Shown in pieces: positions 4,867 to 25,819 of a stretch of DNA of 64,000 nucleotides (its first letter is position 1; each line of letters begins with the position of its first letter). The position numbers and the translations under genes were made by a program. Below the pieces are notes generated by a model. It was not told the DNA's origin, did no database searches, and was given only the letters and a program-made list of their open reading frames with translations. This DNA is from Sphingopyxis sp. LC81. Lineage in GTDB: Bacteria > Pseudomonadota > Alphaproteobacteria > Sphingomonadales > Sphingomonadaceae. The stretch covers positions 1 to 64,000 of the forward strand of contig NZ_JNFD01000017.1 in the NCBI RefSeq assembly GCF_000756375.1, read 5' to 3'.

Positions 4867-4867
4867 G

Positions 4868-4957
4868 ACCCTGTCCGGCCGCCGACACGGGGCCGGGCGG
4901 CGATCGCGGCACGTTCTCCGCGGTCCCTTGCTTCGCTTTGTAAAGGAAGAGAGATCC
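4868..4957 (+). promoter_or_regulatory. Possible ROSE-like RNA thermometer in 5' leader
   Basis: The leader ends with TTGCT (4928-4932) about 11 bases before the AGGA Shine-Dalgarno core (4944-4947). This is the arrangement of ROSE thermometers, in which U(U/C)GCU pairs with the ribosome binding site. The upstream part is strongly GC-rich with complementary CCGGCC / GGCCGG pieces near 4875-4895. ROSE elements are common before alphaproteobacterial small heat shock genes. No folding calculation was made. Confidence 0.4.
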
Positions 4958-5413: not shown

Positions 5414-5437
5414 AGGGCGCCCGATCGAACGATGTTG

Positions 5438-5469
5438 CGGGGTCCGGAGTCCCTTCCGGGCCCCGTTTT
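5438..5469 (+). terminator. Rho-independent terminator after hsp20
   Basis: The stem CGGGGTCCGGA (5438-5448) pairs with TCCGGGCCCCG (5455-5465), 11 bp with one G-U wobble, and is followed by TTTT. It lies just after the hsp20 stop and just before the end of the convergent acetyltransferase gene. Confidence 0.8.
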
Positions 5470-5474
5470 CGTAC

Positions 5475-5942: not shown

Positions 5943-7048
5943 AGCAGTTGATCCAGCGTCTGAAGGCATGCGTGCGCGAGCAGCTTCGAGCGTTCGGGCG
6001 ACCAGCCTTGGGCGGGGTCGGGGAGGTCGCGATTGTCCTTGAACGGCATTTCGAGCGTCATCGACACCGCGCCGAAGCGTTCGGCGAGCTGTGTCGTCGA
6101 CATCGAGAGATTCGCCTGCCCCGGCGCGGTTTCGGTATAGCCGAGGTCGAGCTGGAAATCGGGGGTGTTCGCCGCGAGCGCGGTTTCGAAGGCCTTATAT
6201 TTTTCGGTTTGCTCGGGCTTGAGCGACGGAATGCCTTCGAAGCCCGCGAGGAAGACCGCGGGGATCGCTTCGTCGCCGTGGACGTCCATCGCCCAGTCGA
6301 CGCCGGTTTCATCCATCGCGTTACGCACCACGAGGACTTCGGGGCTGCGTTCGGCGGTCGGGTTATCCCATTCGCGGTTGAGGTTCACCCCGGCAAAATT
6401 GGTGCGCAGATGCCCGCGGCACGAACCGTCGGGATTCATGTTCGGGACGATGTGGAAGCGGCATTTCTGCCGCAGCGAACGCGCGTGCGGATCGGCGGGG
6501 TCGACGAGCTTTTCGAGCGCGCCTTCCATCCACCATTCGGCCATGCTCTCGCCCGGATGCTGGCGCGCATAGAGCCAGACCTGCGTCTCGCCGGTGCCGA
6601 GTTCGAGGCAATCGATCGGCTGGCCTTCGAGGCTGGTGCCGAGGCAGCGGTAGGTCACACCCTCGCATTCGGCGATCTGGGCGACGAGGTCGTGGTGGCG
6701 CTCCATCGAATAGGGCGCGAAATAGGCGATGTAGAGGATCGGGCTTTCGGCGGTGTGCTGGATCGTCAGCGTGCCAGCGTCGTAGCTGGTGTCGAGGCGG
6801 AACCAGGTTTCGCGATCGGTGCTGGCGCAGGCGGCATAACCCGGCCAGCCGTCGGGATAAGCCGAATCGCCAAGCCCCGTGATCGCGAGGTCGAGCGCGT
6901 CGCCGACCGCGCACGACACGCGGAAGTGGAACCATTGGAAAAAGTCCGATTCGCGGTCCTTGCGAATCGAAAGGCGCGCCGACGTGCCGTCGACATTTTC
7001 CACGACGATATTGCCGCTGTCGAAAGCGGCGTTGATGCTGATGGTCAT
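5939..7048 (-). CDS. M14-type zinc carboxypeptidase (cytosolic carboxypeptidase-like)
   Basis: A 369-residue metallopeptidase with an N-terminal beta-sandwich domain (about 1-125) like that of Nna1/cytosolic carboxypeptidases, followed by an M14 catalytic domain. Zinc ligands are H164 and E167 in QHPGES, and H257 in DVHGDE. Substrate-binding residues are R215 and the NR pair in VNLNREWDN, and the catalytic glutamate is probably E333 in TLEMPFKDN. There is no signal peptide, so it acts in the cytosol, trimming C-terminal residues of an unknown substrate. The ATG at 7048 overlaps the upstream lipoprotein stop (ATGA). Confidence 0.9.
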
Positions 7049-7665
7049 TTGACGCTGATAGTGCGTCCCGATTCCCCGGGGAAGTCCTTGAATAGAGCTT
7101 CGGCCAATTTCGCCGCCGCGAGGCTGGGCTGGCTGGCGGGCACCTTCACCGGAACAGCGGTCACTGCGCGGCCTTCCCATAAAGCCTGACCGCTCGCCGC
7201 ATCGTCGATGCGCACCGCGAGTTGCAGATCGGCCATCCGCTTGGGACCGCCGCCGAGGTTGAGGCCGATTCCGAGCCCGACGCCCGACCCGTAGCTGCCC
7301 GTCGAACCGCCGACCCCGACCGAGACGGGCGAACGGCGGCCGACGCCTTCACGGTTCATGCGTTCGAAACCGATGCGCACCTTCAAGGGCGCGCGGGCAC
7401 CGTCGGGCGCCGCGACGAGTCCCTGCCGTTGCAATTGCTGTTCGACCGCGGTGCGGTAGCTGTTCCATTCGAGCGAGGGCGCGTCGATCATCGCCCCGGC
7501 GTTGCCGAGCGGCGCGGCGTCGACAGTGTAGCGCGTGCCCGGCGCCCAGCCCGCAGGCGCGCTGGCGTGGAAACGCGTGACCTCGACCGGGGGAACCGCG
7601 GTGGCGCAGCCACCGAGAGCGAGCGCCGCTGCGGCAAGCAGGGCGACGGAAATTTGACGCGTCAT
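7045..7665 (-). CDS. DUF4136-like lipoprotein
   Basis: This 206-residue protein starts with a lipoprotein signal: basic MTRQ, a hydrophobic stretch and the lipobox LGGC with C20 as the lipidated residue. The mature part resembles DUF4136 proteins, which are outer-membrane or periplasmic lipoproteins of unknown role. A glycine-rich low-complexity loop ([20 protein letters not shown]) occurs in the second half. I prefer the ATG at 7665 to one at 7686, because it places the signal peptide right at the N-terminus. It is the first gene of the operon with the M14 carboxypeptidase and GNAT. Confidence 0.75.
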
Positions 7666-7717
7666 CCGGACATCATGCGCCAGCAAATATGGCTTGGCAA
7701 TGAACGGCCTATCGCGC

Positions 7718-7790
7718 CGTCATGCCGGGCTTGACCCGGCATCCATCGGCGATGGCGCAGCTGGACCCCGGATCAAGTCCGGGGTGACGA
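7718..7790. repeat. GTCATCCCGG-type palindromic intergenic repeat, copy 1
   Basis: Two hairpins stand head to head: ATGCCGGG/CCCGGCAT (7722-7742, 5-nt loop) and ACCCCGGA/TCCGGGGT (7765-7785, 5-nt loop). The ends CGTCA and TGACG are complementary, so the whole unit is also an inverted repeat. The right half is identical to that of the copy at 30470-30562. It lies between two genes that both read leftward. Confidence 0.8.
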
Positions 7791-7828
7791 TAAAAGGGGA
7801 GGGCGCGATCTACATCGCGCCCGTCCGA

Positions 7829-8506
7829 TCAACGATAGAAGATGTGGTTGTCGATCTGCGCGATGCGCGTCTTGCGCCAGCCCGGCGAGACATAGCGCGC
7901 GTGGAAGAAGAGCGCGCCCGGGGCGTGGTTCTTCCAGCTGCCGTCGCGGGCGATCTGCGCGATCGCGACAGCGTTATTCCACTGCGCCGCGTTGCGCACC
8001 GCGGGCATCCGGCCGCCGCGCACGAAGCTGAACTGGCTCTTTTGGTGGACGACGCCGCAGAGGCTCTTGGGGAAGCGGCCCGACTGGGCGCGGTTGATCA
8101 CGACATGCGCGACCGCGAGCTGGCCGGGGAGCGATTCGCCGCGCGATTCGAAATAGACCGCGCCGGCGAGGCAGCGCAGTTCGGCGTCGATGTCGGCGGG
8201 CTTGGGCGTTTCGGCGACGAGTTCGGCGAGCGAATCGGCGGTCGAGTCAGCGGTCACCGGGGCCGGCTTCGGCTCGGTGGCGGGTTCTTCGTCGGTCTTG
8301 CTATTGTCTTCGACCGGCGCTTCGGCCGTGGTCGACAGATCCGCCTTTTCAGCCACGACCGGCGCGTCGGCGCCCGGCAGGATGATCGTGGGGATATTGG
8401 CGTCGGCCGCAAGATCGCTTGCAAAGCCCGGTTCCGCCAAAAGCAGCATGGAGGCGGCAGTCATGCCGACGGCAGCCATGCCGGCTACGTTCAGAATGCG
8501 ACTCAT
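7829..8506 (-). CDS. SleB-type cell wall hydrolase
   Basis: A 225-residue exported protein. Residues about 5-30 are a signal or anchor segment (AGMAAVGMTAASMLLLA), followed by an acidic, proline-rich linker and, from about 105 to the end, the Hydrolase_2/SleB domain with AVYFESRGE carrying the probable catalytic glutamate. Relatives are lytic transglycosylases or amidases that cut peptidoglycan; SleB of Bacillus degrades spore cortex. Here a housekeeping role in wall turnover is more likely. The start was set at the ATG at 8506, preceded by GGAC. The alternative is a TTG four codons upstream. Confidence 0.82.
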   Translation of the reverse strand: MSRILNVAGMAAVGMTAASMLLLAEPGFASDLAADANIPTIILPGADAPVVAEKADLSTTAEAPVEDNSKTDEEPATEPKPAPVTADSTADSLAELVAETPKPADIDAELRCLAGAVYFESRGESLPGQLAVAHVVINRAQSGRFPKSLCGVVHQKSQFSFVRGGRMPAVRNAAQWNNAVAIAQIARDGSWKNHAPGALFFHARYVSPGWRKTRIAQIDNHIFYR

Positions 8507-8700
8507 ATTGTCCGTCAAAAGTGCGGCCGATGAACCGAACCTCTCAAAACAGGCGGGGGACTAAGGTCCTGTATCGCCGCCTGCGGTCATCGTCCGACTG
8601 CGTGTCCAAACCGTTTGCCGGGTGCTTGCAAAGCAGTGCAACCCGCGGAACGACCTACGCGTTATCGAATGGGCGGCACTTATTGTGCGCCGCAACAGAG

Positions 8701-9036
8701 TCAAGTTAACGCGGCCCACTCCGCGACGAGTTGTGGCGCATCTGCGATATCCAGTTCGATCAGCCACATATCGGGATCGGCCTTTCGCCGCCGTTCCCGA
8801 TAGATCGCCCGCGATTCACCATCTTTTGCGTCGGCCGGGCCGACCGCCTCCCAGATATAGTGGCCGTCCGCCGAAAAGCGGCGTTCGAGCAGCGGTCCCG
8901 CTTCACCGCGATCGCTGCATTGGACGAGGATGATTCCGGAGGTTTCGTCGCCCTTGATAACCACGGTCGCAAAGCCGCCGGCCGCTTCGGTGCGGCGAAG
9001 CAGCAGGTCGACGAGGAAGCGGCTTTTGAGCCGCAT
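8701..9036 (-). CDS. DUF1491 family protein
   Basis: A 111-residue soluble protein recognised as DUF1491, a family found mainly in alphaproteobacteria, with the conserved start RLKSRFLVDLLLRR and the C-terminal DPDMWLIELD block. Its function is unknown. The codon before the ATG is GTG, so either could serve as start. It lies directly downstream of ptsN (24-base gap), suggesting cotranscription from the hpf-ptsN unit. The 194 bases beyond its stop hold no recognisable gene, only the upstream region of the cell wall hydrolase. Confidence 0.8.
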   Translation of the reverse strand: MRLKSRFLVDLLLRRTEAAGGFATVVIKGDETSGIILVQCSDRGEAGPLLERRFSADGHYIWEAVGPADAKDGESRAIYRERRRKADPDMWLIELDIADAPQLVAEWAALT

Positions 9037-9060
9037 CACGGGATGGCTCGCAGCGCGGCG

Positions 9061-9525
9061 TTACGCCGCGTCACGCGCTTCGGTGTCGGCGAGCATCGCA
9101 TAAAGCGCTTCGTCACTCTTCGCGCCGCGCAGCCGTTCGGCAATCGCGTCGTTGCGGAGCATGCGCGACACGCCCGCGAGCGCCTTCAGATGATCGGCGC
9201 CGGCATCGAGCGGCGAGAGCAGGATGAAGAGCAGGTCGACCGGCAGGCCGTCAACCGCGGTAAAGTCGATCGGACGCGCCAGTTGCAGGAACAGGCCGCG
9301 CACGCCGCCGAGATCGGCCATCTTGGCATGCGGAAGCGCGATCCCGCGCCCGAATCCGGTCGAGCCGAGGCGTTCGCGTTCGAGCAGCGCCTCGCTGACT
9401 TCGCCCGCATCGAGGCCGAGCGAACGCGCCGCGAGATCGCCCACGAAGGGGAAGAGCGCCTTTTTCGAATCGAGCTGCACATGCGCGCGCACGGTCGCCG
9501 GATAGAGAAGGGAAGAAAGATTCAT
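9061..9525 (-). CDS. ptsN: PTS IIA-like nitrogen regulatory protein PtsN
   Basis: EIIA-Ntr is the output phosphocarrier of the nitrogen PTS. It takes phosphate from NPr and regulates potassium transport, sensor kinases or (p)ppGpp enzymes by binding them. The phosphorylated histidine is H66 in GRGIALPHAK. The 154-residue length is typical, and the fold is the fructose-type EIIA. The start MNLSSLL at 9525 was preferred to one 15 codons upstream. Placement next to hpf is widespread in proteobacteria, although rpoN, the other usual neighbour, is not in this window. Confidence 0.92.
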   Translation of the reverse strand: MNLSSLLYPATVRAHVQLDSKKALFPFVGDLAARSLGLDAGEVSEALLERERLGSTGFGRGIALPHAKMADLGGVRGLFLQLARPIDFTAVDGLPVDLLFILLSPLDAGADHLKALAGVSRMLRNDAIAERLRGAKSDEALYAMLADTEARDAA

Positions 9526-9673
9526 TGTCTGATCAAATCTTGTTAAACGCCGGCCGCCGCCAGAAAACATGCTGGCAGGCGATCGCGGATCTGTCGTGGC
9601 AGGCCCCCCGCCAACCCGGCTTCGGGCATCGTTGGGCGCGGCCCTTAAGCCGGATGGCGGAGAAAATCCAGCC

Positions 9674-10246
9674 CTATCGTGGCTCGACCCAGCCGATCGT
9701 CCCGTCGTCGCGGCGATAGACCATATTGTGCGTGCCGGTCCTGCTGTTGACGAAGAGCAGCGCGTTGGTGTTGCGAAGGTCGAGCATCATCACCGCGTCG
9801 GACACGCTGCTGCTCGGAATATCGACGCGCGTTTCGGCGATGATCGCGGGCGCGTCGCCCGCATCCTCTTCGCCGCCGCCGTCGAACACGGTGTAGCCCG
9901 CATTGTCCTCGATCTCGTCGACCGTCGGCGAAGGTGCCGCCACGCCGTTGTTATGATCCTTCAACCGCCGCATATAGCGCCTGAGCTGCTTTTCGATGCG
10001 CTCGGCGGCGCCTTCGAATGCGACATGCGCATCCTGCGCCTGGCCGTGCCCCTTCAGCACCAGCCCCTGCATCACATGCGCGACGATGTCGCACTGGAAA
10101 CTGTCGTGCGGTCCTTTTCCGAAGGTCGCGTGCGCCCCGATTGCGCGCGAGAAATATTTGTCGGCAATCGCGTTCATCCGGTCCGACACATGCGCCTGGA
10201 GCGCTTCGCCGGTTTCGATCTGGTGGCCAGAGACGCGGATTTCCAT
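9674..10246 (-). CDS. hpf: Ribosome hibernation-promoting factor, long form
   Basis: This 190-residue protein has the N-terminal HPF/RaiA domain (about 1-100; MEIRVSGHQI start, beta-alpha-beta fold that blocks the decoding centre). A linker follows, then the C-terminal dimerisation domain (about 135-190, MLDLRNTNALLFVNSRTG and the YRRDDGTIGWVEP tail). The two-domain long form drives 100S ribosome dimers in stationary phase. The gene is followed by ptsN after about 150 bases. That gap carries no clear gene or terminator. Confidence 0.93.
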   Translation of the reverse strand: MEIRVSGHQIETGEALQAHVSDRMNAIADKYFSRAIGAHATFGKGPHDSFQCDIVAHVMQGLVLKGHGQAQDAHVAFEGAAERIEKQLRRYMRRLKDHNNGVAAPSPTVDEIEDNAGYTVFDGGGEEDAGDAPAIIAETRVDIPSSSVSDAVMMLDLRNTNALLFVNSRTGTHNMVYRRDDGTIGWVEPR

Positions 10247-10291
10247 TTTTCTTCTCCTTCTTGGCCGGCGCGATGATTTAGGGAAAGGTCA

Positions 10292-10993
10292 TCACACCGT
10301 ATCGAGCCACAGCGGCTGGTTCAGCCCTGCGACAAATTCGGCGTGGCGCGCGAGTTCGGCGGCCGACGCCATATGGGGACGGGGTTCGCGAAAGGGACGG
10401 TCGGCGCCGCGCGATGCGGCGGGCGCCGCGGCGTTCGAAACGGTGATACTCGCGCCCGAGGCGGCGAGGCCGAGGCCGATCTGCCGGCCGCCGGTCATCT
10501 CGATATAGAGATGCGCGAGCAGTTCGGCGTCGAGCAAAGCCCCATGCTTGACGCGGTGGCTGCGGTCGATGCCGTAGCGCGTGCAGAGCGCGTCGAGGCT
10601 GTGTTTCGCGCCGGGGTGGAGCTTGCGCGCCATCTGCACCGTGCAGCACATGCGCGTCATGTCGAGCGCGGGGCGCCCGGCGCGCGCGAGTTCGGCGTTG
10701 ACGAATCCGAAGTCGAAGGCGGCGTTGTGCGCGACGAGCGGCGCGTCGCCCAGAAACTCCATAAGTTCGTCGACGCGCGTCGCGAACAGCGGCTTGTCCG
10801 ACAGGAACTGGATCGACAGGCCATGCACGGCCTCGGCCGCGGCGGGCATGTCGCGTTCGGGATTGAAATAGGCGTGAAAGGTGACGCCGGTTTCGCGGCG
10901 GTCGACCAGCTCGACACATCCGATTTCGACCAGCCTGTCCCCGCTTCTGGGGTCGAAACCCGTGGTTTCGGTATCGAAAATAATCTCGCGCAT
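10292..10993 (-). CDS. dnaQ: DNA polymerase III epsilon subunit
   Basis: The 3'-5' proofreading exonuclease of the replicative polymerase. The DEDDh active site is complete: D7 and E9 (FDTET, Exo I), D94 (HNAAFD, Exo II), then H150 and D155 (HGALLD, Exo III). The 233-residue length matches the family. The start MREIIF at 10993 places Exo I at the usual distance from the N-terminus; an in-frame ATG at 11002 is the alternative. It is the last gene of the ppsR-maf-aroE-coaE-dnaQ operon, 19 bases after coaE. Confidence 0.95.
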   Translation of the reverse strand: MREIIFDTETTGFDPRSGDRLVEIGCVELVDRRETGVTFHAYFNPERDMPAAAEAVHGLSIQFLSDKPLFATRVDELMEFLGDAPLVAHNAAFDFGFVNAELARAGRPALDMTRMCCTVQMARKLHPGAKHSLDALCTRYGIDRSHRVKHGALLDAELLAHLYIEMTGGRQIGLGLAASGASITVSNAAAPAASRGADRPFREPRPHMASAAELARHAEFVAGLNQPLWLDTV

Positions 10994-11012
10994 CGAAGCC
11001 ATAATCTGGACC

Positions 11013-11636
11013 CTATCGGGCGTGGAAACAAGAGGCGATAAATCTTATCTGGCGGTGCGTCTCGCTTTTCGGGCGGCCCGTTTCGATGATGAAATCGGCG
11101 CGCGCCCGCTTGACGCGGTCGGGCACCTGCAGCCGGCGGATCGCTTTCAATTTCGCAGCGGTCATGCCGGGGCGGCGCATCACACGCCTCCGCTGCAGCC
11201 ATGCCGGTGCCGAGACGACGGCGATCGCGCCGACCTTTCGCCAGCCACCCTTTTCGAAGAGCAGGGGGATGTCGAGCACGACGACGTCGCGCGCGCGGTG
11301 GCGCGCAAGGAAATTTTTCTGCGCTTTGCCGATTGCCGGGTGGACGATCGCTTCGAGCGCCGCGAGTTCGTGCGTGTTGCCGAGCACCAGCGCGCCGAGT
11401 TTTTGGCGATCGACGCCGTTCGGGCCGGTGGTGCCGGGAAAGCGCGCCTCGATCGCGGCGACCAATGCGCCGCCGGGGCCTTGCAGTCGGTGGACCTCGG
11501 CATCGGCGTCGAACACCGGCACGCCTTCGCGTTCGAACATCATCGCTGCGGTCGACTTGCCCATGCCGATCGACCCGGTGAGTCCGAGAATGAAGGGACG
11601 GCGGAGCCGCGAACCGAGGCGCTTGTGATGCGTCAT
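11013..11636 (-). CDS. coaE: Dephospho-CoA kinase
   Basis: CoaE phosphorylates the 3'-hydroxyl of dephospho-CoA, the last step of coenzyme A synthesis. A P-loop GLTGSIGMGKST is seen at about residues 18-29, followed by the DAD segment and the family's VVLDIPLLFE block. The 207-residue length is normal. The N-terminal basic extension (MTHHKRLGSRLRR) before the P-loop is slightly long, and an internal start is possible. Its start overlaps the aroE stop as ATGA, indicating translational coupling. Confidence 0.93.
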   Translation of the reverse strand: MTHHKRLGSRLRRPFILGLTGSIGMGKSTAAMMFEREGVPVFDADAEVHRLQGPGGALVAAIEARFPGTTGPNGVDRQKLGALVLGNTHELAALEAIVHPAIGKAQKNFLARHRARDVVVLDIPLLFEKGGWRKVGAIAVVSAPAWLQRRRVMRRPGMTAAKLKAIRRLQVPDRVKRARADFIIETGRPKSETHRQIRFIASCFHAR

Positions 11637-12445
11637 GCCGTAAGCAGCGCGCGCAGCTCCTCGTCGCGGCCCTCGGGCGGGGCGCTGCCGAAGAATAGCT
11701 CGAACGCGAGCGCGGCCTGGCCGATCAGCATGTCGAGCCCGTCGACGGTGTCGAGCCCGCGCGCCTCGGCCGCCTTGAGCAAGCCGGTCTGAAGCGGCGA
11801 ATAGACGAGGTCGTAGACGATCGCGTCGTCGGCGAGCGGCGACAGGTCGAGATCGAGCGGCGGCTGGCCCTTCATCCCAAGACTGCTCGAATTGACGAGC
11901 AAGGATACCGGCGGGAGCTGCGCATCGAGCGCTCGCGTCTCGCCCTTGAGGCCGAAGGTCGCGAGCAGGCCCATCGCTTTGAGCGGGCTGCGGTTGAGGA
12001 TCGTCACCGGCCCGACATTGGCACGCGCGAGCGCGAACAGCACCGCGCGCGCCGCACCGCCGGCACCGACGACCGCGACCGGCGCGCCCTCGAGATCGAG
12101 TTCGGCGAGCGGCGAATAGAAACCGGCAGCGTCGGTGTTGGTGCCGATCAGCGATCCGTCCTTTTGCCGGACGATCGTGTTCATCGCACCGATCGTGCCG
12201 CGAATGTCGCCGGGATCGTCGACGAGATCCATCACCGCCGCCTTGTGCGGCATGGTGACATTGCAGCCGCGCCAGTCGGGATCGGTGCGGCGCTCCGCGA
12301 TATAGGCGGAGAGGTCTTCGGGCTTCACATGTTCGCGCCGATAATCGCCGGTGAGCCCGAGGGCATCGAGCCAGAAGCCGTGGATCAGCGGCGATTTCGA
12401 CTGGGCGATCGGGTCACCGATCACTTCGGCATAGGGTTTGCTCAT
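11633..12445 (-). CDS. aroE: Shikimate dehydrogenase
   Basis: AroE reduces 3-dehydroshikimate to shikimate with NADPH in aromatic amino acid synthesis. The substrate-binding SKSPLIH (about 16-22), the catalytic lysine K68 in NVTMPHK and the nucleotide-binding glycine loop GAGGAAR are all present. The 270-residue length is standard. The start at 12445 overlaps the maf stop (ATGA), while a longer reading runs through maf in another frame and is rejected. It sits third in the ppsR operon. Confidence 0.95.
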   Translation of the reverse strand: MSKPYAEVIGDPIAQSKSPLIHGFWLDALGLTGDYRREHVKPEDLSAYIAERRTDPDWRGCNVTMPHKAAVMDLVDDPGDIRGTIGAMNTIVRQKDGSLIGTNTDAAGFYSPLAELDLEGAPVAVVGAGGAARAVLFALARANVGPVTILNRSPLKAMGLLATFGLKGETRALDAQLPPVSLLVNSSSLGMKGQPPLDLDLSPLADDAIVYDLVYSPLQTGLLKAAEARGLDTVDGLDMLIGQAALAFELFFGSAPPEGRDEELRALLTA

Positions 12446-13038
12446 GATGCAGCCAATCCAGAGGTGCGCAGCCACGCGAGCAAGGGAAGCATCGGCATAC
12501 CGATGATGGTCCAGGGATCGCCCTCGACCTTTTCGAACAATTGCACGCCCGCTCCTTCGATTTCGTAACAGCCGACGGTCCAGCGGATGCTGTCCCATTC
12601 GCGTGCGACATAGTCGGCGATGAAGGCGTCGGACAAGGGGCGCATCCACAGCTTCGCTTCGCCGATCGCGCGCCAGATGGGCGCACCGTCGCGCGCGGCG
12701 ACCGCGGCGCTGAACAGCCGGTGGCGCGTGCCGGCCATGCGGCGAAGGTGATCGGCCGCCTCGTCGGGACTTTCGGGCTTTGCGAGCATCGAGCCATCGT
12801 CGAGGGCGAGGGTGGAGTCGGCGCCGAGCACGGTCACGCCGGGAAGCCGCGACGAGATTTTGACGGCCTTCGCCTCGGCGAGCGCGTCGGCGATGTTGCG
12901 CGGGGTCTGCCCGGCGGCGAGCAGCGAGGCGGTGAGCGCCTCTTCGTCGACATGCGCCGCGCTCGTTTCGAAGTCGAGCCCGGCGGCGCGGAGCATCGCG
13001 GCGCGGCCGCTGCTTTGCGAGGCGAGGAGGAGGGTCAT
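12442..13038 (-). CDS. maf: Maf-like nucleoside triphosphate pyrophosphatase
   Basis: A Maf/YceF/YhdE-family house-cleaning pyrophosphatase of 198 residues. It would hydrolyse non-canonical or modified nucleotides to monophosphates. The family start LLLASQSSGRAAML and the metal-binding aspartate in LGADSTLAL (about residue 74) are visible, as are the later WRAIGEAKLWM and GCYEIEG blocks. Which nucleotide it prefers cannot be told. The ATG at 13038 overlaps the ppsR stop (ATGA). Location beside aroE, coaE and dnaQ is conserved in alphaproteobacteria. Confidence 0.92.
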   Translation of the reverse strand: MTLLLASQSSGRAAMLRAAGLDFETSAAHVDEEALTASLLAAGQTPRNIADALAEAKAVKISSRLPGVTVLGADSTLALDDGSMLAKPESPDEAADHLRRMAGTRHRLFSAAVAARDGAPIWRAIGEAKLWMRPLSDAFIADYVAREWDSIRWTVGCYEIEGAGVQLFEKVEGDPWTIIGMPMLPLLAWLRTSGLAAS

Positions 13039-13847
13039 GCGGCGGCGCGATCTTCGACGAGCTTGATCACCGCGGCGGCGGTTTCCTCGATCGAACGGCG
13101 CGTGACGTCGATCACCGGCCAGCCATTGTCGGCGAACATCCGCCGCGCATAGGCGAGCTCGGCCTTGACGCGCTCGTCGTCGACATAGCTCGTCTCGGGC
13201 GCCTGATTGAGCGAGAGCAGGCGGTTGCGGCGCACCTGCACCAGCCGGTCGAGCCCGGTGGTGAGCCCGACGATCATCGGGCGCTTCAGGGTGAACAGCG
13301 CGTTCGGCGGCGGCGATTCGGGAACGATCGGGATGTTCGCGGTCTTGAAGCCGCGGTTCGCGAGATAGATGCTCGTCGGGGTTTTCGAGGTGCGCGACAC
13401 GCCCGCGAGCACGATGTCGGCCTGTTCCCAATTTTCCCAGCCAATGCCGTCGTCGTGCGCGACGGTAAATTGAATCGCCTCGACGCGCGCGAAATAGGCG
13501 GCGTCGAGCACATGCTGGCGGCCGGGACGCGCCTTCGCTTCCTGGCCGAGCATCCGCGACAGTGCGTCGGTGACCGCGTCGAGCGCCGCGACCGTCGGCA
13601 GGTTGAGCGCGGTCGCGCGGCGTTCGAGGCTGACGCGCAGTTCGCCGTTCACCAGCGTGAAGAGGATCATCCCGGGGCTCGCCTGCACCTCGGCCATGAT
13701 CCGGTCGAGATGCGATTCCGATCGCACCATCGGCCAGAAATGGCGCACGACCTCGACATCGTCGAACTGCGCGATCGCCGCCTTGGCGATATTTTCGAGT
13801 GTCTCGCCCGTGGAGTCGGATATGAGATGTAAGTGGAGCCGGCCCAT
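13035..13847 (-). CDS. ppsR: Pyruvate,water dikinase / PPDK regulatory protein
   Basis: A DUF299 bifunctional kinase/phosphorylase that inactivates and reactivates phosphoenolpyruvate synthase or pyruvate,phosphate dikinase by ADP-dependent threonine phosphorylation. The P-loop GVSRTSKT lies at 149-156, and the family N-terminus HLHLISDSTGET is intact. Length is 270 residues. The first codon is taken at 13847 (MGRLHLH); longer readings extend into the origin-like region and are rejected. It is the first gene of the leftward operon and the left neighbour of the candidate origin. Its target kinase gene is outside the window. Confidence 0.92.
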   Translation of the reverse strand: MGRLHLHLISDSTGETLENIAKAAIAQFDDVEVVRHFWPMVRSESHLDRIMAEVQASPGMILFTLVNGELRVSLERRATALNLPTVAALDAVTDALSRMLGQEAKARPGRQHVLDAAYFARVEAIQFTVAHDDGIGWENWEQADIVLAGVSRTSKTPTSIYLANRGFKTANIPIVPESPPPNALFTLKRPMIVGLTTGLDRLVQVRRNRLLSLNQAPETSYVDDERVKAELAYARRMFADNGWPVIDVTRRSIEETAAAVIKLVEDRAAA

Positions 13848-13905
13848 CGCGGCACCATGGCGGGAAACTCCCGAAAAAGGCAAGTCGCGAAGCGTTTTAC
13901 CGCCC

Positions 13906-13914
13906 TGTGGATAA
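13906..13914 (-). other. DnaA box 1
   Basis: TGTGGATAA on the plus strand is a perfect 9-mer DnaA box (TTATCCACA) on the minus strand. It lies just upstream of ppsR and in opposite orientation to the other two boxes. Confidence 0.8.
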
Positions 13915-13987
13915 GTTTTGGCATAAGCGCAGGGATGAATTCGGCACGCGCGATTCATCCCCGGCCGTGTCGATTCCGCTCCACCGC

Positions 13988-13996
13988 TTATCCACA
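13988..13996 (+). other. DnaA box 2
   Basis: A perfect TTATCCACA, immediately followed by AAGGGATGAATC. It is 20 bp (about two helical turns) from box 3 in the same orientation. Confidence 0.85.
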
Positions 13997-14007
13997 AGGG
14001 ATGAATC

Positions 14008-14016
14008 TTATCCACA
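14008..14016 (+). other. DnaA box 3
   Basis: A perfect TTATCCACA preceded by a GAATC methylation site that shares base 14007 as its last base, so methylation could sit right beside DnaA binding. Confidence 0.85.
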
Positions 14017-14145
14017 GGCTGTGAATTAGGGGGACAGCGACAAACGACTCTGCGCGCCAACTCGCCAGGCCCAGAGTCAAGCTGTTGGCAAAAAGGACGC
14101 CCCGGCCTAAAGCCGCGCTTGTCCGCCGACCTACAAACCACCACA

Positions 14146-14166
14146 ATATTATTTAATATGTATATG
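14146..14166. other. AT-rich tract, possible DNA unwinding element
   Basis: The sequence around ATATTATTTAATATGTATAT is almost free of G and C in an otherwise GC-rich region. It lies about 130 bp from the nearest DnaA box and directly before hemE. It could be the unwinding element, the hemE promoter -10 region, or both, as at the Caulobacter origin. Confidence 0.5.
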
Positions 14167-14186
14167 AAGAGAGAAAGAGGGCCCGC

Positions 14187-15215
14187 GTGAAGGCGTCACC
14201 GAAGAACTTGCTGGCCACGCTGCGCGGGGTGCGGCACGAGCGCCCGCCCTTGTGGCTGATGCGCCAGGCCGGACGCTATCTGCCCGAATATCGTGCCCTT
14301 CGCGAAACCAAGGGCGGCTTTCTCGAGCTTTGCTATGATCCCGAGGCCGCGGCCGAAGTGACGTTGCAGCCGATCCGGCGTTTCGGTTTCGACGGGTCGA
14401 TCCTCTTTTCGGACATTCTCGTGATCCCGCACGCGCTCGGCCAGCATTTGTGGTTCGAGGCCGGCGAGGGGCCGCGGCTCGCACCCCCACTCGTCGATAG
14501 CACGCTGGCGTCGCTCGAGACGGCCCACCAGCGGCTCGACCCCGTCTATGCCACCGTCGCGCGCGTCGCGGCCGCGCTCCCGCCCGAAACGACCTTCCTC
14601 GGCTTTGCGGGGAGCCCGTGGACGGTCGCAACCTATATGGTGGCGGGGCAGGGGTCGAAGGACCAGGCCGCGGCCAGGCGGCTTGCGTTCGGCGATCCAG
14701 CGGCGTTCCAGGCGATTATCGACGCGATCGTCGAGCTGACCGTCACTTATCTGTCGGGCCAGATCGAAAATGGCGTCGACGCGGTGCAATTGTTCGACAG
14801 CTGGGCGGGCAGCCTGAGCCCTGCGCAATATGAGCGATGGGTGATCGCGCCCAACGCCGAGATCGTGCGCCGATTGAGGACGCTCCATCCCGATACGCCG
14901 ATCATCGGCTTTCCAAAGGGTGCGGGCGGCAAGCTCCGCGCCTATGCCGACGAGACCGGCGTCGACGCGATCGGGCTCGACGAGACGGTCGATCCGCTGT
15001 GGGCCGACGCCATCTTGCCGGCGCATCTGCCCGTACAGGGCAATCTCGACCCGCTCGCGCTCGTCGCCGGCGGCGAAGCGCTCGATACCGCGATCAACCG
15101 CATCCTTGCGGCATTCCCGTCGCGTCCCCATATCTTCAACCTCGGCCATGGCATCGTGCCCGACACGCCGATCGCGCATGTCGAGCATCTGATCAGGCGC
15201 GTTCGCGGCGGATAA
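14187..15215 (+). CDS. hemE: Uroporphyrinogen decarboxylase
   Basis: HemE removes the four acetate carboxyls of uroporphyrinogen III to give coproporphyrinogen III in haem synthesis. The conserved N-terminal PPLWLMRQAGRYLPEYR block with its substrate-binding arginines and the FSDILVIPHALG segment holding the catalytic aspartate are intact. The 342-residue length is typical. The start is a GTG at 14187 preceded by AAAGAGGG. A ten-codon reading frame starting at ATG 14158 ends across this GTG (GTGA). It is followed four bases later by hemJ, so both would form a haem unit next to the origin. Confidence 0.95.
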   Translation: MKASPKNLLATLRGVRHERPPLWLMRQAGRYLPEYRALRETKGGFLELCYDPEAAAEVTLQPIRRFGFDGSILFSDILVIPHALGQHLWFEAGEGPRLAPPLVDSTLASLETAHQRLDPVYATVARVAAALPPETTFLGFAGSPWTVATYMVAGQGSKDQAAARRLAFGDPAAFQAIIDAIVELTVTYLSGQIENGVDAVQLFDSWAGSLSPAQYERWVIAPNAEIVRRLRTLHPDTPIIGFPKGAGGKLRAYADETGVDAIGLDETVDPLWADAILPAHLPVQGNLDPLALVAGGEALDTAINRILAAFPSRPHIFNLGHGIVPDTPIAHVEHLIRRVRGG

Positions 15216-15718: not shown

Positions 15719-15859
15719 GGCCGATCAACCCCGCTCCGCGCGGGCGGCGCTTCCTTGCGCCGAAGCTATCTTGAACGGTCGTCCCACGGCCGGATAGGCA
15801 CCCCAGGGTGCATCGAAATCGACTGTTATTTTCTCCCAAAATCTACCTGGAATCCATCC

Positions 15860-17116
15860 ATGCATCTTAAAGAACTCAAAACCAAAGCCCCCGCCCAGCT
15901 CGTCGAAATGGCTGAAGAGCTGGGGGTCGAGGGCGCGTCGACGCTGCGCAAGCAGGACCTGATGTTCTCGATCCTGAAAGTACTCGCCGAAGAGGGCGAG
16001 GAAATCATCGGATCGGGCACGATCGAGGTTCTCCCGGACTCGTTCGGTTTCCTGCGCTCGTCCGAAGCCAATTATCTCGCGGGTCCCGACGACATCTATG
16101 TCTCGCCGAACCAGGTCCGCAAATATGGCCTGCGCACCGGCGACACCGTCGAAGGCGAGATCCGCGCGCCGCGCGACGGCGAGCGTTATTTTGCGCTGAC
16201 CAAGCTGATCAGCGTCAATTTCGACGATCCCGACGTCGTCCGCCATCGCGTCAATTTCGACAACCTCACGCCGCTCTATCCGAACCAGAAGCTGTCGCTC
16301 GACACCGTCGACCCGACCGTCAAGGACAAGTCGGCCCGCGTGATCGACCTCGTCAGCCCGCAGGGCAAGGGCCAGCGCGCGCTGATCGTCGCGCCGCCGC
16401 GCACGGGCAAGACGGTGCTGCTGCAGAATATCGCCAAGGCGATCACCGACAATCATCCCGAGGTTTACCTCATCGTCCTCCTCGTCGACGAACGTCCCGA
16501 GGAAGTCACCGACATGCAGCGCAGCGTGAACGGCGAGGTCGTCTCCTCGACCTTCGACGAACCCGCGACGCGTCACGTCCAGGTCGCCGAAATGGTGATC
16601 GAAAAGGCCAAGCGCCTCGTCGAGCACAAGAAGGATGTCGTCATCCTGCTCGATTCGATCACGCGCCTCGGCCGCGCCTACAACACCGTCGTCCCGTCGT
16701 CGGGCAAGGTGCTCACCGGCGGTGTCGACGCGAACGCGCTCCAGCGCCCGAAGCGCTTCTTCGGCGCCGCGCGTAACATCGAGGAAGGCGGTTCGCTGTC
16801 GATCATCGCGACCGCGCTGATCGATACCGGCAGCCGCATGGACGAAGTGATCTTCGAAGAATTCAAGGGCACGGGTAACTCGGAAATCGTGCTCGACCGC
16901 AAGGTTGCCGACAAGCGCATCTTCCCGTCGCTCGACGTCGGCAAGTCGGGCACCCGCAAGGAAGAATTGCTCGTCGAAAAGGACAAGCTCAGCAAAATGT
17001 GGGTGCTGCGCCGTATCCTCATGCAGATGGGCACGATCGACGCGATGGAATTCCTGCTCGACAAGATCAAGGATTCGAAGACCAACGAGGATTTCTTCGA
17101 CTCCATGAATCAGTAA
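15860..17116 (+). CDS. rho: Transcription termination factor Rho
   Basis: A 418-residue hexameric RNA-dependent helicase that ends transcription and limits antisense RNA. In order: an N-terminal helical domain ([22 protein letters not shown]), a cold-shock-type RNA-binding domain with GFLRS (about 63-67) and the DDIYVS motif, then the RecA-like ATPase with Walker A APPRTGKT (178-185) and Walker B ILLDSITR. The secondary RNA-binding Q and R loops follow. The start at 15860 is the standard one; a reading from 15755 would run into the leader. Being next to hemE, hemJ and the parABS block is typical for alphaproteobacteria. Confidence 0.97.
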
Positions 17117-17128
17117 GCCGACCCAGCG

Positions 17129-17422
17129 ATGGCCGTGATCGAACATGCCTTGCTTCCCGTTTGTGCGGGAAGCGAGGCCGCGTTCGAGGCGGCCGCCCGC
17201 GCGGCGCGGCCGCTGATCGAAGCATCGCCCGGTTTTATTTCAATCGAAATTCGCCGCCCGACAGAAACTGGACAGGCCTATCTGCTTTTGGTGAAGTGGA
17301 GGTCGGTCGAGGATCATCGGGACGGCTTCCGGCAATCGGACCGTTATCAACAATGGCGGGCGTTGCTGCATCCCTTTTATGACCCTATGCCAGAGGTCAG
17401 CTATTTCGGAGACGCGCTGTGA
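17129..17422 (+). CDS. Antibiotic biosynthesis monooxygenase (ABM) domain protein
   Basis: A 97-residue single-domain protein with the dimeric ferredoxin-like ABM fold. The pattern of strand (AVIEHALLPV), helix (AFEAAARAARPLIEASPG), strands with a KWRSVEDH block, and the C-terminal VSYFG segment fits the family. Members include quinol monooxygenases, haem-degrading enzymes and stress proteins of unknown activity; no specific substrate can be assigned. It starts 12 bases after rho and overlaps the TerC gene by four bases (GTGA), so it is probably cotranscribed with both. Confidence 0.75.
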   Translation: MAVIEHALLPVCAGSEAAFEAAARAARPLIEASPGFISIEIRRPTETGQAYLLLVKWRSVEDHRDGFRQSDRYQQWRALLHPFYDPMPEVSYFGDAL

Positions 17423-21436: not shown

Positions 21437-21452
21437 TGTTCCACGTGAAACA
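21437..21452. other. parS centromere site 1
   Basis: TGTTCCACGTGAAACA is a 16-bp match to the consensus ParB-binding parS site (TGTTTCACGTGAAACA) with a single base different in the left arm. It begins immediately after the mnmE stop codon, in the short gap before mnmG. Confidence 0.88.
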
Positions 21453-21512: not shown

Positions 21513-23381
21513 ATGCAGAATGAAGCAATTTTCGATGTCATCGTCGTCGGCGGTGGCCATGCCGGAACCGAAGCCGCGGCCGCCGCGGCGCGGCTCGGTG
21601 CGTCCGTCGCGCTCGTCAGTTTCGACCCCGCGCTGATCGGCACGATGTCGTGCAACCCGGCGATCGGTGGGCTCGGTAAGGGCCATTTGATGCGCGAGGT
21701 CGACGCGCTCGACGGCTGGATGGCGCGCGCTGCGGATAGCGCGGCGATCCATTATCGCATGCTCAACGCGTCGAAGGGGGCGGCGGTGCAGGGACCACGC
21801 GTCCAGGCCGACCGCAAACTCTATCGCGAGGCGATCCAGAACTTGCTCGCGGCCGAGGACGGCATCACCGTCGTCGCGGGCGAAGCGGCCGCGCTTCGGC
21901 TGTCGGAGGATGGGTGCGTCGAAGGGCTCGATCTCGCCGACGGGTCTGTTTTGAAGGCCCGCGCCATCGTGCTCGCAACGGGGACATTTCTCGGCGGCCG
22001 ACTCTTCCGCGGCGAAGAACGGATGGAGGGCGGGCGCATCGGCGAAGCGGGCGCACACCGCCTCGCCGAACAATTACGTGCGGCCGACCTGCCGATGGCG
22101 CGGCTCAAGACGGGCACGCCGCCGCGGCTCGACGGGCGGACGATAGACTGGGCGCGGCTCGATGAGCAGCCGTCGGATAGTGCGGAAGGCGCGCGCTGGA
22201 CCTGTTCCACGTGGAACAGTGAACGGACGGTGCCGCAGATTTTTTGCGCGATCACGCGCACCAATGCCCAAAGTCACGCGATCATCGCGGCGAATCTCGA
22301 TCGCTCGCCGCTGTTCACGGGCGCGATCGGCGCGGCGGGGCCGCGTTATTGCCCGTCGATCGAGGACAAGATCCACCGTTTCGCCGACCGCGACGGGCAT
22401 CAGGTATTTCTGGAACCCGAGGGGCTCGATTCGTTCCTCGTCTATCCGAACGGGATTTCGACCTCGCTGCCCGCCGATGTGCAGCTTGCGATGCTGCGCA
22501 CGATGGAGGGGTTGGAGGCGGTCGAGATGGTCGTGCCGGGCTATGCGGTCGAATATGACCATATCGACCCGCGCGCGCTCGACCGGACATTGCAGGTGCG
22601 CGCGATGCCCGGGCTTTGGTGTGCGGGGCAGATCAACGGCACGACGGGATATGAGGAGGCGGCGGCACAGGGGCTGGTCGCCGGAGCGAATGCCGCGCTC
22701 GCCGCGCAGGGCCGCGATCCGCTGATCCTCGACCGGTCCGAATCCTATATCGGCGTGATGGTCGACGATCTGGTTCTGCAGGGCGTCACCGAACCCTATC
22801 GCATGCTCACCGCGCGCGCCGAATATCGACTGCGCCTCCGCGCCGACAATGCCGCGACGCGGCTTACGCCGAAGGGGATTGCACTGGGGTTGGCGCGGCC
22901 CGCGACCGCCGCGCTGTTCGCCGCGCGGCAGGCCGAACGGGCGCGCGCCGAAGCCCAGCTCGATGCGCCGGTCGCGACCGCCGATTATGCTGCGGTCGGA
23001 CTGGCCCTCCCGGGCGATGGTATCGCGCGCAAGCGGATCGACCTGCTGCGCTATCCCGGCGTGACGATGGCCCGGCTCGCCCTGCTTGCGCCCGAACTCG
23101 ATTCGATCGATCCGGCGATTCTGTCCGAGATCGCCGAGGATGCGCATTACGCGCCCTATATCGCGCGGCAGGATGCCGAACTGCGCGCGCTCGCCGCAAA
23201 TGAGGCGATCATGCTCGACCCCGCGCTCGATTATGCCGCGATCGGCGGGCTATCGCGCGAGATGGTCGAACGGCTGACGAAGGCACAGCCCGAGACGCTG
23301 GGGCAGGCGGCGCGGATCGACGGGGTGACCCCGGCGGCGCTGACCGCAATCATGGTACATAGCCGGCGGCGCGCCGCATGA
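21513..23381 (+). CDS. mnmG: tRNA uridine-5-carboxymethylaminomethyl modification protein MnmG (GidA)
   Basis: The FAD-binding partner of MnmE, 622 residues. The dinucleotide-binding loop VVGGGHAG is at about 10-17, followed by the [14 protein letters not shown] block and the second nucleotide region ATGTFLGG. The C-terminal helical tRNA- and MnmE-binding domain is complete. The ATG at 21513 gives the standard N-terminus. The loop around residues 231-235 reads CSTWN, because a perfect parS site is written into the reading frame at 22203-22218. Only 12 bases separate its stop from the next listed start region of rsmG. Confidence 0.96.
22203..22218. other. parS centromere site 2, inside mnmG
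   Basis: TGTTCCACGTGGAACA is a perfect 16-bp palindrome and a canonical parS variant. It is read within mnmG as Cys-Ser-Thr-Trp-Asn, in a region where MnmG proteins vary. Confidence 0.9.
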
Positions 23382-23414: not shown

Positions 23415-24074
23415 GTGTCGGTTGAACTGCTTGATAGCGAAGACGCCGCACGGGCCTGGATCGGCGAGGCATTTTCACCGACCGCTGGTCAATGGAAACA
23501 GCTTGAGCGCTTCGTCGATCTTTTGATCGCCGAAAGCGTGCAGCAGAATCTGATCGCGTCATCGACGATCCCGACGATGTGGGTCCGGCATATTGCCGAC
23601 AGCGCCCAGCTCTTGTCTTTCGACACCCGCGACAGCGATGGTCTCTGGATCGATCTTGGAAGCGGCGCGGGATTGCCGGGGCTGGTTATCGCCATATTGA
23701 GTCCGCGCCCGGTGCTGCTCGTGGAGTCGCGAAAACGACGCTGCGATTTCTTGCGCAGCGTCGCTGCGGAGCTTGATCTCGCAAATGTCGAGGTCGTCGA
23801 AGCGCCTTTGGAGCGGATCGAAACGCGGCCCGCATCGACAATCAGCGCGCGCGCCTTTGCCCCGCTCGACAAGCTGCTCGACTTATCCGCGCGTTTTTCC
23901 ACCGAATCGACGCGCTGGCTGCTGCCAAAAGGCCGAAACGCGGTTAAGGAACTGGCTTTGCTGCCCCAGCCATGGCAGAGAATGTTCCACGTGGAACAGA
24001 GCCGTACCGATGCTGAGAGCCAGATTTTGGTCGGCTCCGGAAAAATCGCGGCAAAACAGCGAGGAAAGCGATGA
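23415..24074 (+). CDS. rsmG: 16S rRNA (guanine-527 N7)-methyltransferase RsmG (GidB)
   Basis: RsmG methylates G527 of 16S rRNA using S-adenosylmethionine; its loss causes low-level streptomycin resistance in many bacteria. The SAM-binding loop LWIDLGSGAGLPGL is at about 75-88, and the ESRKRRCDFLR block follows. The GTG at 23415, preceded by AGAGGG, gives 219 residues; a TTG at 23394 is an alternative. The C-terminal region reads MFHVEQ across an embedded parS site. Its stop overlaps the parA start (ATGA). Confidence 0.93.
   Translation: MSVELLDSEDAARAWIGEAFSPTAGQWKQLERFVDLLIAESVQQNLIASSTIPTMWVRHIADSAQLLSFDTRDSDGLWIDLGSGAGLPGLVIAILSPRPVLLVESRKRRCDFLRSVAAELDLANVEVVEAPLERIETRPASTISARAFAPLDKLLDLSARFSTESTRWLLPKGRNAVKELALLPQPWQRMFHVEQSRTDAESQILVGSGKIAAKQRGKR
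23983..23998. other. parS centromere site 3, inside rsmG
   Basis: A second perfect TGTTCCACGTGGAACA palindrome, encoding Phe-His-Val-Glu within MFHVEQ of RsmG. It lies only about 75 bp upstream of parA. Confidence 0.9.
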
Positions 24075-24853
24075 TCCGCATTGCCGTGGCGAACCAGAAG
24101 GGTGGGGTCGGCAAGACGACGACGGCAATCAATCTGGCGACCGCGCTCGCGGCGACGGGCTGGCGCACGCTGATCATCGACCTCGATCCGCAGGGCAATG
24201 CGTCGACCGGGCTGGGAATCAAGCAATCGCAACGCGAATCTTCGAGCTATGAATTGCTGCGTGGCGACGCGACGCTGGCCGAGTGCGCGATCCCGACCGC
24301 GGTGCCGCGGCTCGACATCGTCACCGCGACGGTCGACCTGTCGGGGGCCGAGATCGAGCTGATCGAATTTCAGGACCGGTTGCACCGTCTGCAACAGGCG
24401 CTGTCGAGCGCCGAGGCGGGGCAGTGGGATATCTGCCTGATCGACTGCCCGCCATCGTTGGGCATGCTGACACTCAACGCGCTGATCGCGGCCGAATCGC
24501 TGATCGTGCCGCTGCAATGCGAATTCTTCGCGCTTGAGGGGCTCAGCCAGCTGCTCACCACGGTCGAACGCGTGCGCGAACGCTTCAACCAGAAATTGTC
24601 GATCCTGGGGGTTGCGCTCACCATGTTCGATCGCCGCAACCGGCTGACCGATCAGGTGTCCGACGATGTGCGCGAGGTGCTCGGCCCGGTCGTGTTCGAA
24701 ACGGTGATCCCGCGCAACGTCCGCCTGTCCGAAGCGCCGAGCCATGGCTTGCCGGCCTTGATCTACGATCATCGCTGCGCCGGATCGGCGGCCTATATCG
24801 CACTCGCACGCGAGTTGATCGACCGGCTTCCTAACGTCCGTAAGGCTGCTTAA
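24071..24853 (+). CDS. parA: Chromosome partitioning ATPase ParA
   Basis: The 260-residue Walker-type ATPase that moves the ParB-parS complex and thus the origin region to the new pole. The deviant Walker A motif KGGVGKTTT lies at residues 10-18 with the signature lysine at its start (K10), followed by Walker A' (IIDLDPQGN) and Walker B (LIDCPPSLG). It lacks the N-terminal DNA-binding extension of plasmid ParA, which fits a chromosomal (type Ib, Soj-like) protein. It is coupled to rsmG by ATGA and to parB, whose ATG follows its stop directly. Confidence 0.96.
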   Translation: MIRIAVANQKGGVGKTTTAINLATALAATGWRTLIIDLDPQGNASTGLGIKQSQRESSSYELLRGDATLAECAIPTAVPRLDIVTATVDLSGAEIELIEFQDRLHRLQQALSSAEAGQWDICLIDCPPSLGMLTLNALIAAESLIVPLQCEFFALEGLSQLLTTVERVRERFNQKLSILGVALTMFDRRNRLTDQVSDDVREVLGPVVFETVIPRNVRLSEAPSHGLPALIYDHRCAGSAAYIALARELIDRLPNVRKAA

Positions 24854-25819
24854 ATGGCTGATAATAAAGACGAAAATGGATCGGAATCGACACCGGCGCG
24901 CAAGCGCCCTTCGGGCCTCGGTCGCGGGCTCAATGCGCTGTTCGGCGATGTCGCGGTCGAGGCACCGGTGCTTGCGACCCCCGGCAGCGCCGCGAAGGCC
25001 ACGCCGGTGGCGGGCGATTCGGTGCAGCATGTTCCCGTCGGGGCGATTCGCCCGCTGCCGGGCCAGCCGCGCCGCCATTTCGACGAAAATGCGATCGCCG
25101 AGCTCGCCGATTCGATCGGGCTGCGCGGATTGCTGCAGCCGATCATCGTCCGCCGCTCGCCCGATGGTGAAGGTTATCAACTTGTTGCCGGTGAACGGCG
25201 CTGGCGCGCGGCACAGCGCGCGGGGTTGCACCAGATTCCCGCGCTTGTGCGCGAACTCGACGATGCCGCGACCTATGAGATCGCGTTGGTCGAGAATATC
25301 CAGCGCCAGGATCTCAACGCGATCGAAGAGGCGAGCGCCTATCGCCGCCTGATCGAGGATTTCGGGCATAATCAGGAAGCGCTGGCGAAGCTGGTCGGCA
25401 AGTCGCGCAGCCATGTCGCGAATCTGATGCGCCTGCTCGACCTGCCCGCGAGCGTGCAGACGCTCGTTGGCGACGGATCGCTCGCGATGGGTCATGCGCG
25501 CGCGCTGATCGGCGCCGACGGCGCCGAGGCGATCGCGCGCCGCGTCGCGAAGGAAGGGCTGTCGGTCCGTGCGGTCGAGGCGCTGGTGCGCGCGGGCAAG
25601 GGTGGCGATGCGCCGCGCAAGGCTCCGCTTGAATTCAAGAGCGCCGATGGCGGGCGCGATCCCGATATCGTCGCGGTCGAGCGGCACCTGTCCGAACTGC
25701 TCGGAATCGGTGTCGCGATTCATTATGCCGGTGAGGGCAAAGGCGCGTTGACGCTGAAATTCGCATCGCTCGACCAGCTCGATATGATCTGCCAGCGATT
25801 GTCGGGCGAATCGATCTGA
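24854..25819 (+). CDS. parB: Chromosome partitioning CTPase/DNA-binding protein ParB
   Basis: A 321-residue parS-binding protein that loads on DNA as a CTP-dependent clamp. In order: a short N-terminal ParA-stimulating region (RKRPSGLGRGLNALFGD), the ParB/Srx CTP-binding domain with GERRW at 113-117 and ENIQR at 147-151, the helix-turn-helix at about 174-194 (NQEALAKLVGKSRSHVANLMRLL), and a C-terminal dimerisation domain. Its substrates, three parS sites, lie 0.9-3.4 kb upstream in the same gene cluster. Confidence 0.96.
   Translation: MADNKDENGSESTPARKRPSGLGRGLNALFGDVAVEAPVLATPGSAAKATPVAGDSVQHVPVGAIRPLPGQPRRHFDENAIAELADSIGLRGLLQPIIVRRSPDGEGYQLVAGERRWRAAQRAGLHQIPALVRELDDAATYEIALVENIQRQDLNAIEEASAYRRLIEDFGHNQEALAKLVGKSRSHVANLMRLLDLPASVQTLVGDGSLAMGHARALIGADGAEAIARRVAKEGLSVRAVEALVRAGKGGDAPRKAPLEFKSADGGRDPDIVAVERHLSELLGIGVAIHYAGEGKGALTLKFASLDQLDMICQRLSGESI

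Follow-up and report, generated by a model that had tools for sequence, protein, structure and literature searches.

The window analysed here, a stretch of 64,000 nucleotides from Sphingopyxis sp. LC81, belongs to a 4.4-Mb draft genome of 48 contigs, in which it begins at base 1 of contig 17, and contains, between the genes for PPSR (COG1806) and hemE, an intergenic gap of 339 bp with a GC content of 55%, compared with 66% for the window. The hemE gene is 90–91% identical in the closest named relatives, including Sphingopyxis sp. HIX and S. panaciterrae, and up to 98% identical in further genomes of the same genus. Based on Pfam matches, the minus-strand genes near the gap encode PPSR, Maf, shikimate dehydrogenase, CoaE and a dnaQ-like RNase_T exonuclease, while the plus-strand genes encode hemE and UPF0093. 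An earlier, sequence-only reading of this DNA had the flanking genes mostly pointing away from the gap, and this is true of the nearest typed genes on both sides; the next open reading frame on the right (15725–17146, minus strand) has no Pfam match. Searches of the window against Rfam (at the gathering threshold) and for tRNAs yielded no match, and folding the gap as DNA revealed nothing convincing (z −1.85, with 2 of 100 shuffles equally good).

Table. Features of the PPSR–hemE gap and its surroundings (positions in the window; genus gaps, n = 30; order gaps, n = 70)
Feature	Position	Strand	Basis or conservation
PPSR / Kinase-PPPase (COG1806) gene	13035..13847	-	Pfam PF03618
Very probable oriC: PPSR (COG1806)–hemE intergenic gap	13848..14186		synteny and site clustering
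DnaA box 1, perfect	13906..13914	-	exact in 26/30 genus gaps
Degenerate DnaA box TTGGCATAA, 3 mismatches, 12 bp from box 1	13918..13926	-	offset test, order sequences
GGGATGAAT copy 1, weakly conserved	13932..13940	+	exact in 4/30 genus gaps
GANTC (GATTC)	13952..13956		23/30 genus gaps
GGGATGAAT copy 2	13953..13961	-	exact in 21/30 genus gaps
GANTC (GATTC)	13972..13976		30/30 genus gaps
DnaA box 2, perfect	13988..13996	+	exact in 23/30 genus gaps
GGGATGAAT copy 3, between boxes 2 and 3	13998..14006	+	exact in 16/30 genus gaps
GANTC (GAATC), overlapping GGGATGAAT copy 3	14003..14007		28/30 genus gaps
DnaA box 3, perfect	14008..14016	+	exact in 28/30 genus gaps
Degenerate DnaA box 4 TGTGAATTA, 2 mismatches, inverted, 3 bp from box 3	14020..14028	-	order consensus TGTGGATAA
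GANTC (GACTC), site kept amid variable flanks, N varies across order	14046..14050		30/30 genus; 46/70 order
GANTC (GAGTC), overlapping GTCAA-N4-TTGGCA element	14074..14078		30/30 genus; 23/70 order
Element GTCAA-N4-TTGGCA-N17-TAA, putative IHF-like site and/or hemE promoter	14076..14110	+	order comparison
AT-rich tract, candidate duplex-unwinding element	14145..14165		low genus identity (22nd percentile)
hemE	14187..15215	+	Pfam PF01208
parS-like site, just after mnmE	21437..21452		TGTTNCACGTGNAACA match
parS-like site, in mnmG	22203..22218		TGTTNCACGTGNAACA match
parS-like site, in rsmG	23983..23998		TGTTNCACGTGNAACA match
parA	24071..24853	+	Pfam AAA_31 (best match)
parB	24854..25819	+	Pfam ParB_N, HTH_ParB, ParB_C

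The gap lies between hemE and COG1806, as in the hemE-type oriC of Alphaproteobacteria, and the underlying gene order is widely retained. A PPSR homologue adjoins hemE in 75 of 80 order-level loci; in one of the remaining five the contig stops too early, and in four no PPSR was seen in the examined flank, although their contigs reach well past hemE. At the class level, PPSR is found within 1.6 kb upstream of hemE in 60 of the 80 genomes compared (193 searched, 163 with hemE), three of the 60 being from the window's own family. Four Sphingomonas-type records (L025, L034, L060, L061) have no PPSR homologue in the examined flank of hemE, and two records titled Microvirga and Bacillus (L048 and L050) carry sphingomonad-like hemE/PPSR loci with about 70% hemE identity and are probably mislabelled or contaminated assemblies. 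To the right of the gap, parAB and the three parS-like sites are assembled together at a distance of 7–12 kb; these sites, located 7.3–9.8 kb from the gap and before parAB, are the only TGTTNCACGTGNAACA matches in the whole genome. All three carry C at position 5, where the parS consensus has T.

Perfect DnaA boxes (TTATCCACA) cluster in the PPSR–hemE gap and nowhere else in the genome. Three of them had been read in the gap, and they are indeed the only ones in the window; seven exist in the whole genome, three inside 111 bp of the gap and the remaining four each single. For conservation, we considered a genus set comprising the 30 genomes closest by hemE score among 79 with a match (80 searched; the window's own included), and every gap of this set holds at least one perfect box: three in 18, two in 11 and one in a single gap. 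Across the order, 35 of 70 gaps have no perfect box. Regarding the weak box beside box 1, alignment of 53 anchored order sequences yields a mean of 4.9 mismatches at offsets 11–12, whereas the mean in 500 base shuffles never falls below 6.2 at any offset, a result that is only indicative because the sequences are related. The repeated GGGATGAAT motif, which the sequence-only reading had likewise singled out along with an inverted repeat, is real in both respects: of 11 copies genome-wide, 3 fall in a 75-bp stretch inside the gap. However, the left arm of the 13932/13953 inverted repeat is exact in just 4 of the 30 genus gaps, so that the two arms probably do not function as a unit. Exact GGGATGAAT is missing from 60 of 70 order gaps; the motif is mainly a genus-level feature. 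It resembles what we take to be low-affinity ATP-DnaA sites, a similarity that we treat as a lead only.

Taken together, the clustering of DnaA boxes, the adjacent parS/parAB, the conserved gene order and the literature discussed below argue strongly, and GC skew in congeners weakly, for the reading proposed at the outset, that is, that the PPSR–hemE gap is very probably the chromosomal origin oriC. The competing reading is an origin near dnaA, in which case the hemE gap would represent a DnaA-regulated, GANTC-rich promoter region. The dnaA gene is located elsewhere in the assembly (domain C15:29139–29618), one perfect DnaA box (C15:28567) lies no more than about 1 kb from it, and in one congener (G004) the skew minimum is closer to dnaA than to hemE. 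However, the genome-wide confinement of clustered perfect boxes to hemE and the presence of parAB and three parS-like sites beside hemE speak against an origin on the dnaA side, as does the skew of all four congeners, and we consider such a location highly improbable.

As the draft source genome cannot be ordered, skew was sampled in four closed congeners (G023, G039, G004 and G060), two of them with 40 and two with 20 segments of 20 kb each. In a two-arm model, hemE is superior to dnaA as origin in four of four (R2 for hemE/dnaA: G023, 0.541/0.379; G039, 0.349/0.201; G004, 0.386/0.330; G060, 0.552/0.364), and it is the best-fitting position in none (rank 7/158 in G023, 24/146 in G039, 31/128 in G004 and 23/142 in G060). 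For G023, the cumulative minimum falls in the sample just left of hemE (4112501–4132500; hemE at 4152820, dnaA at 358), on a flat stretch that begins at 3.64 Mb, and the maximum is near the antipode; the best-fit origin at 3.66–3.76 Mb is barely better than hemE (R2 0.544 versus 0.541). The best-fit origin is at 3.54–3.74 Mb in G060 (hemE at 3.77 Mb), about 290–390 kb from hemE in G039, and more than 500 kb from hemE, closer to dnaA, in G004. As regards the skew minimum suggested earlier as a check, hemE is preferred over dnaA throughout, but only in two of four congeners does the minimum lie close to hemE, at a distance of roughly one sampling step or less, and in G004 it is nearer to dnaA. 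GC skew thus weakly supports an origin at hemE; it is supporting, not decisive. In the window itself there is no lasting change of sign at the gap, skew being positive left of it (1–14000) and from 18 kb on, and negative only at 14–18 kb and 32–34 kb. Positive skew left of the origin is the reverse of what would be expected; among the congeners, the sample that adjoins hemE on its left has a skew of +0.014 in G060 and −0.003 in G023.

The hemE-proximal half of the gap features a bipartite element, the two parts of which, GTCAA-N4-TTGGC and TTGGCA-N17-TAA, are each present in 33 of 70 order gaps; other spacings (N2–N8 and N14–N20, respectively) do not occur in these 70 gaps. The first half resembles an IHF site, with one mismatch to the consensus, and the second half resembles a promoter with a poor −10 region, although a scan of positions 13800–14300 for sigma-70 promoters and terminators found none and did not list TTGGCA-N17-TAA either. 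Since GTCAA-N4-TTGGC is matched 12 times genome-wide (both strands together) versus 8 times for a reversed control, this core alone is not origin-specific. We favour the view that the element may constitute an IHF-like bend beside a hemE promoter. In some lineages, this half of the gap looks as if it had been rebuilt: GTCAA-N4-TTGGCA is missing from the gaps of L063, L068, L041 and L064, and the latter two have TTGAC in that part. The AT-rich tract noticed earlier is present at about 14140–14170. Inspection of the hemE-proximal tract by eye for a DnaA-trio, an idea taken from an excerpt of PMC8287927, showed no clear repeat.

The gap also holds an array of GANTC sites. The sequence-only reading had counted five within about 130 bp and estimated that well under one would be expected; both figures hold, the expectation being 0.29 when calculated from the window rate for the 130-bp stretch that starts at 13952, which exhibits the highest GANTC density in the window. 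Five or more sites arise in 0.08% of dinucleotide shuffles of the gap. Across 2.4 Mb of sampled sequence from four congeners, such a count is reached in 0.085% of overlapping segments of 339 bp and in 0.48% of the GC-matched ones. For the order-level comparison, six of 80 loci were dropped for a partial PPSR match (L010) or because no PPSR was found (L018, L025, L034, L060, L061), as were five further loci lying outside, or unplaced in, Sphingomonadales (L080, L081, L083, L085, L087); the final 70 include the window. These 70 gaps contain 320 GANTC sites (14.0/kb) versus 96.6 in shuffles, while seven palindromes of the same composition occur 30–122 times (1.3–5.3/kb), pooled counts that overstate significance because related sequences are not independent. 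In the loci surrounding the gaps the GANTC density is 2.28/kb.

Among the 46 order gaps that hold the site at 14046, N is C in 24 and A in 22, with no other base; 24 gaps are devoid of the site, and 15 of these show TTGAC in the same columns. On the hemE protein tree, the numbers of changes (Fitch) are 4 for G, 5 for A, 5 for T and 6 for C, compared with 11 for N, and amount to 14 at 14045, 10 at 14041 and 24–34 at the other ten neighbouring positions examined. Few changes at the four fixed bases and more at N are what one would expect if the GANTC word itself were selected, and the GANTC sites of the origin gap appear to be kept by selection across the sampled order. Among the titles and passages found in a literature search, none reports GANTC selection at Sphingomonadales origins, which does not by itself prove that no such report exists. 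The origin itself was to be expected; the apparent selection on GANTC inside it is less so, and is what we consider new in the present analysis.

The genome encodes both CcrM (match to the solved CcrM 6pbd; E 7.5e-153) and GcrA, and with a CcrM gene and GANTC sites apparently under selection, both features of a CcrM-regulated origin are present. The enrichment does not, however, appear to depend on CcrM: GANTC density is 6.97/kb in the 55 class-level gaps whose genomes have CcrM (173 sites observed versus 99.4 in shuffles; 7 of these gaps lack the motif) and 10.3/kb in the five whose genomes have no clear CcrM (20 sites observed versus 8.6 in shuffles), a difference in the opposite direction (Mann-Whitney p 0.12). 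For this comparison CcrM status was assigned by hand, three of the five gaps come from one family, another GANTC methylase or a different reason for the motif is possible, and gap ends are approximate (55 bases trimmed on the hemE side). The hemE gaps of that one family (L267, L241 and L281, from genomes G102, G200 and G270) contain 9.7–14.8 GANTC/kb.

Two roles for methylation, which are not mutually exclusive, may be considered. The first is control of initiation by CcrM methylation of the GANTC cluster, in logic like Dam/SeqA at E. coli oriC. Such a role would fit (i) the enrichment of GANTC over shuffles and other palindromes, (ii) retention of the site at 14046 while its N varies, (iii) the encoded CcrM, (iv) the extra chromosomes that follow CcrM over-expression in Caulobacter (PMC3973325, in excerpt), and (v) the restraint by hemi-methylation proposed for Agrobacterium ori2 (PMC11514494, in excerpt). 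On the other hand, the N at 14046 is just A or C, and the gaps from genomes without a clear CcrM are the richer ones. Moreover, according to the same excerpts, Caulobacter without ccrM initiates normally and has a DNA content like that of the wild type, and CcrM depletion or excess changed Agrobacterium ori2 but had no obvious or significant effect on ori1.

In the second role, the sites would act not in initiation but in the control, by GcrA and CcrM, of a hemE (or PPSR) promoter embedded in the origin. Here, the encoded GcrA and the promoter-like TTGGCA-N17-TAA with its single spacing are in favour, as is the GAGTC that ends 6 bases ahead of TTGGCA. The motif YGAKTCK has been proposed for GcrA activation, with no such preference in B. 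subvibrioides (excerpt of PMC7987155), and a YGAKTCK site is present in 40 of 70 order gaps; yet it accounts for 0 of 149 genus GANTC sites and for 62 of 320 order sites, below the 29% expected from base frequencies, and we do not favour it as the cause of the GANTC array. Control of the promoter is further at odds with the lack of a sigma-70 consensus match at 13800–14300 and with the position of sites 13952–14003, which lie amid the DnaA boxes and at a distance from the promoter-like element. Based on the GANTC-rich gaps from genomes without a clear CcrM, the YGAKTCK counts and the results for Caulobacter and Agrobacterium ori1, we regard tuning of transcription as a possibility that we lean against, and tuning of initiation as rather unlikely.

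Returning to the origin as such, a scheme may be outlined in which DnaA-ATP would load on the strong boxes 1–3 and then spread over the weak boxes, while a bending protein (IHF) or RNA polymerase would act at GTCAA-N4-TTGGCA-N17-TAA. The AT-rich tract before hemE would then open and forks would depart both ways, after which ParB bound to the three nearby parS-like sites would segregate the new origins. With the encoded CcrM methylating GANTC, new origins would probably be hemi-methylated for a time, and this methylation may tune either initiation or hemE transcription. The sequence-only reading had timing set by DnaA and CcrM together: control by DnaA we infer in the ordinary way, while a part for CcrM is suggested by the encoded enzyme and the selected GANTC sites but has to be reconciled with gaps that are still rich in GANTC although their genomes have no clear CcrM. 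It is tempting to speculate, though we think it unlikely to prove correct, that the selected array, at fixed places and partly overlapping conserved elements, works in sphingomonad origins as a switch that depends on CcrM and either makes the origin refractory or licenses it for initiation. If so, Alphaproteobacteria would have their own equivalent of Dam/SeqA acting on a DnaA-type origin, together with a putative reader of hemi-methylated GANTC, in an order whose origins mostly have no recognisable CtrA sites; the published tests in Caulobacter (PMC3973325) and at Agrobacterium ori1 (PMC11514494) showed, in the parts consulted, no CcrM effect on initiation.

Comparison with described origins places the gap in familiar company. 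According to an excerpt of PMC4741004, the oriC of S. granuli TFA, a member of the same genus, was located with Ori-Finder close to hemE, a position shared by most Sphingomonadaceae that DoriC lists, and Sphingopyxis is described as having conserved DnaA boxes as well as a putative DUE; GANTC, parS and GGGATGAAT are absent from the consulted part of that description. For Novosphingobium PP1Y, a putative origin close to hemE and a dnaA gene is given (PMC4059872, in excerpt), and in Sphingomonadales dnaA is not conserved near ori and parAB has been suggested as the ori anchor (PMC8116508, in excerpt). These three papers, as far as consulted, show that the location and kind of origin were already known. 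The conserved GANTC array is a real and testable addition at an origin that is otherwise ordinary in kind and place.

Exact matches to TTAA-N7-TTAA or TTAACCAT, which we take to be the CtrA site consensus, are found in none of the 30 genus gaps, and across the order in 2 of 70 gaps for the former and in 0 of 70 for the latter. In this respect the genus gaps differ from Cori of Caulobacter crescentus, for which an excerpt of PMC1914354 reports five CtrA sites and also an IHF site. Cori otherwise resembles the gap in its DnaA boxes and several GANTC motifs (the latter from an excerpt of PMC3973325), and the statement in the sequence-only reading that the Caulobacter and Rickettsia origins lie at hemE is correct, as the excerpt gives hemE/COG1806 flanks for both; the ori of Rickettsia prowazekii is likened to the gap by these flanks alone. 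Agrobacterium ori2 shares GANTC in the origin, where hemi-methylation has been proposed to limit initiation, but is a RepABC origin and not of the DnaA/hemE type (PMC11514494, in excerpt).

With the sites listed above, named bases are now available for asking if methylation by CcrM has any influence on initiation where the origin is of the DnaA type and has no CtrA sites. We know of no SeqA-like reader for GANTC. In oriC of E. coli, the GATC sites of Dam adenine methylation are situated among the DnaA boxes, and the gap described here likewise has methylation sites among its DnaA boxes, albeit for a different methylase.
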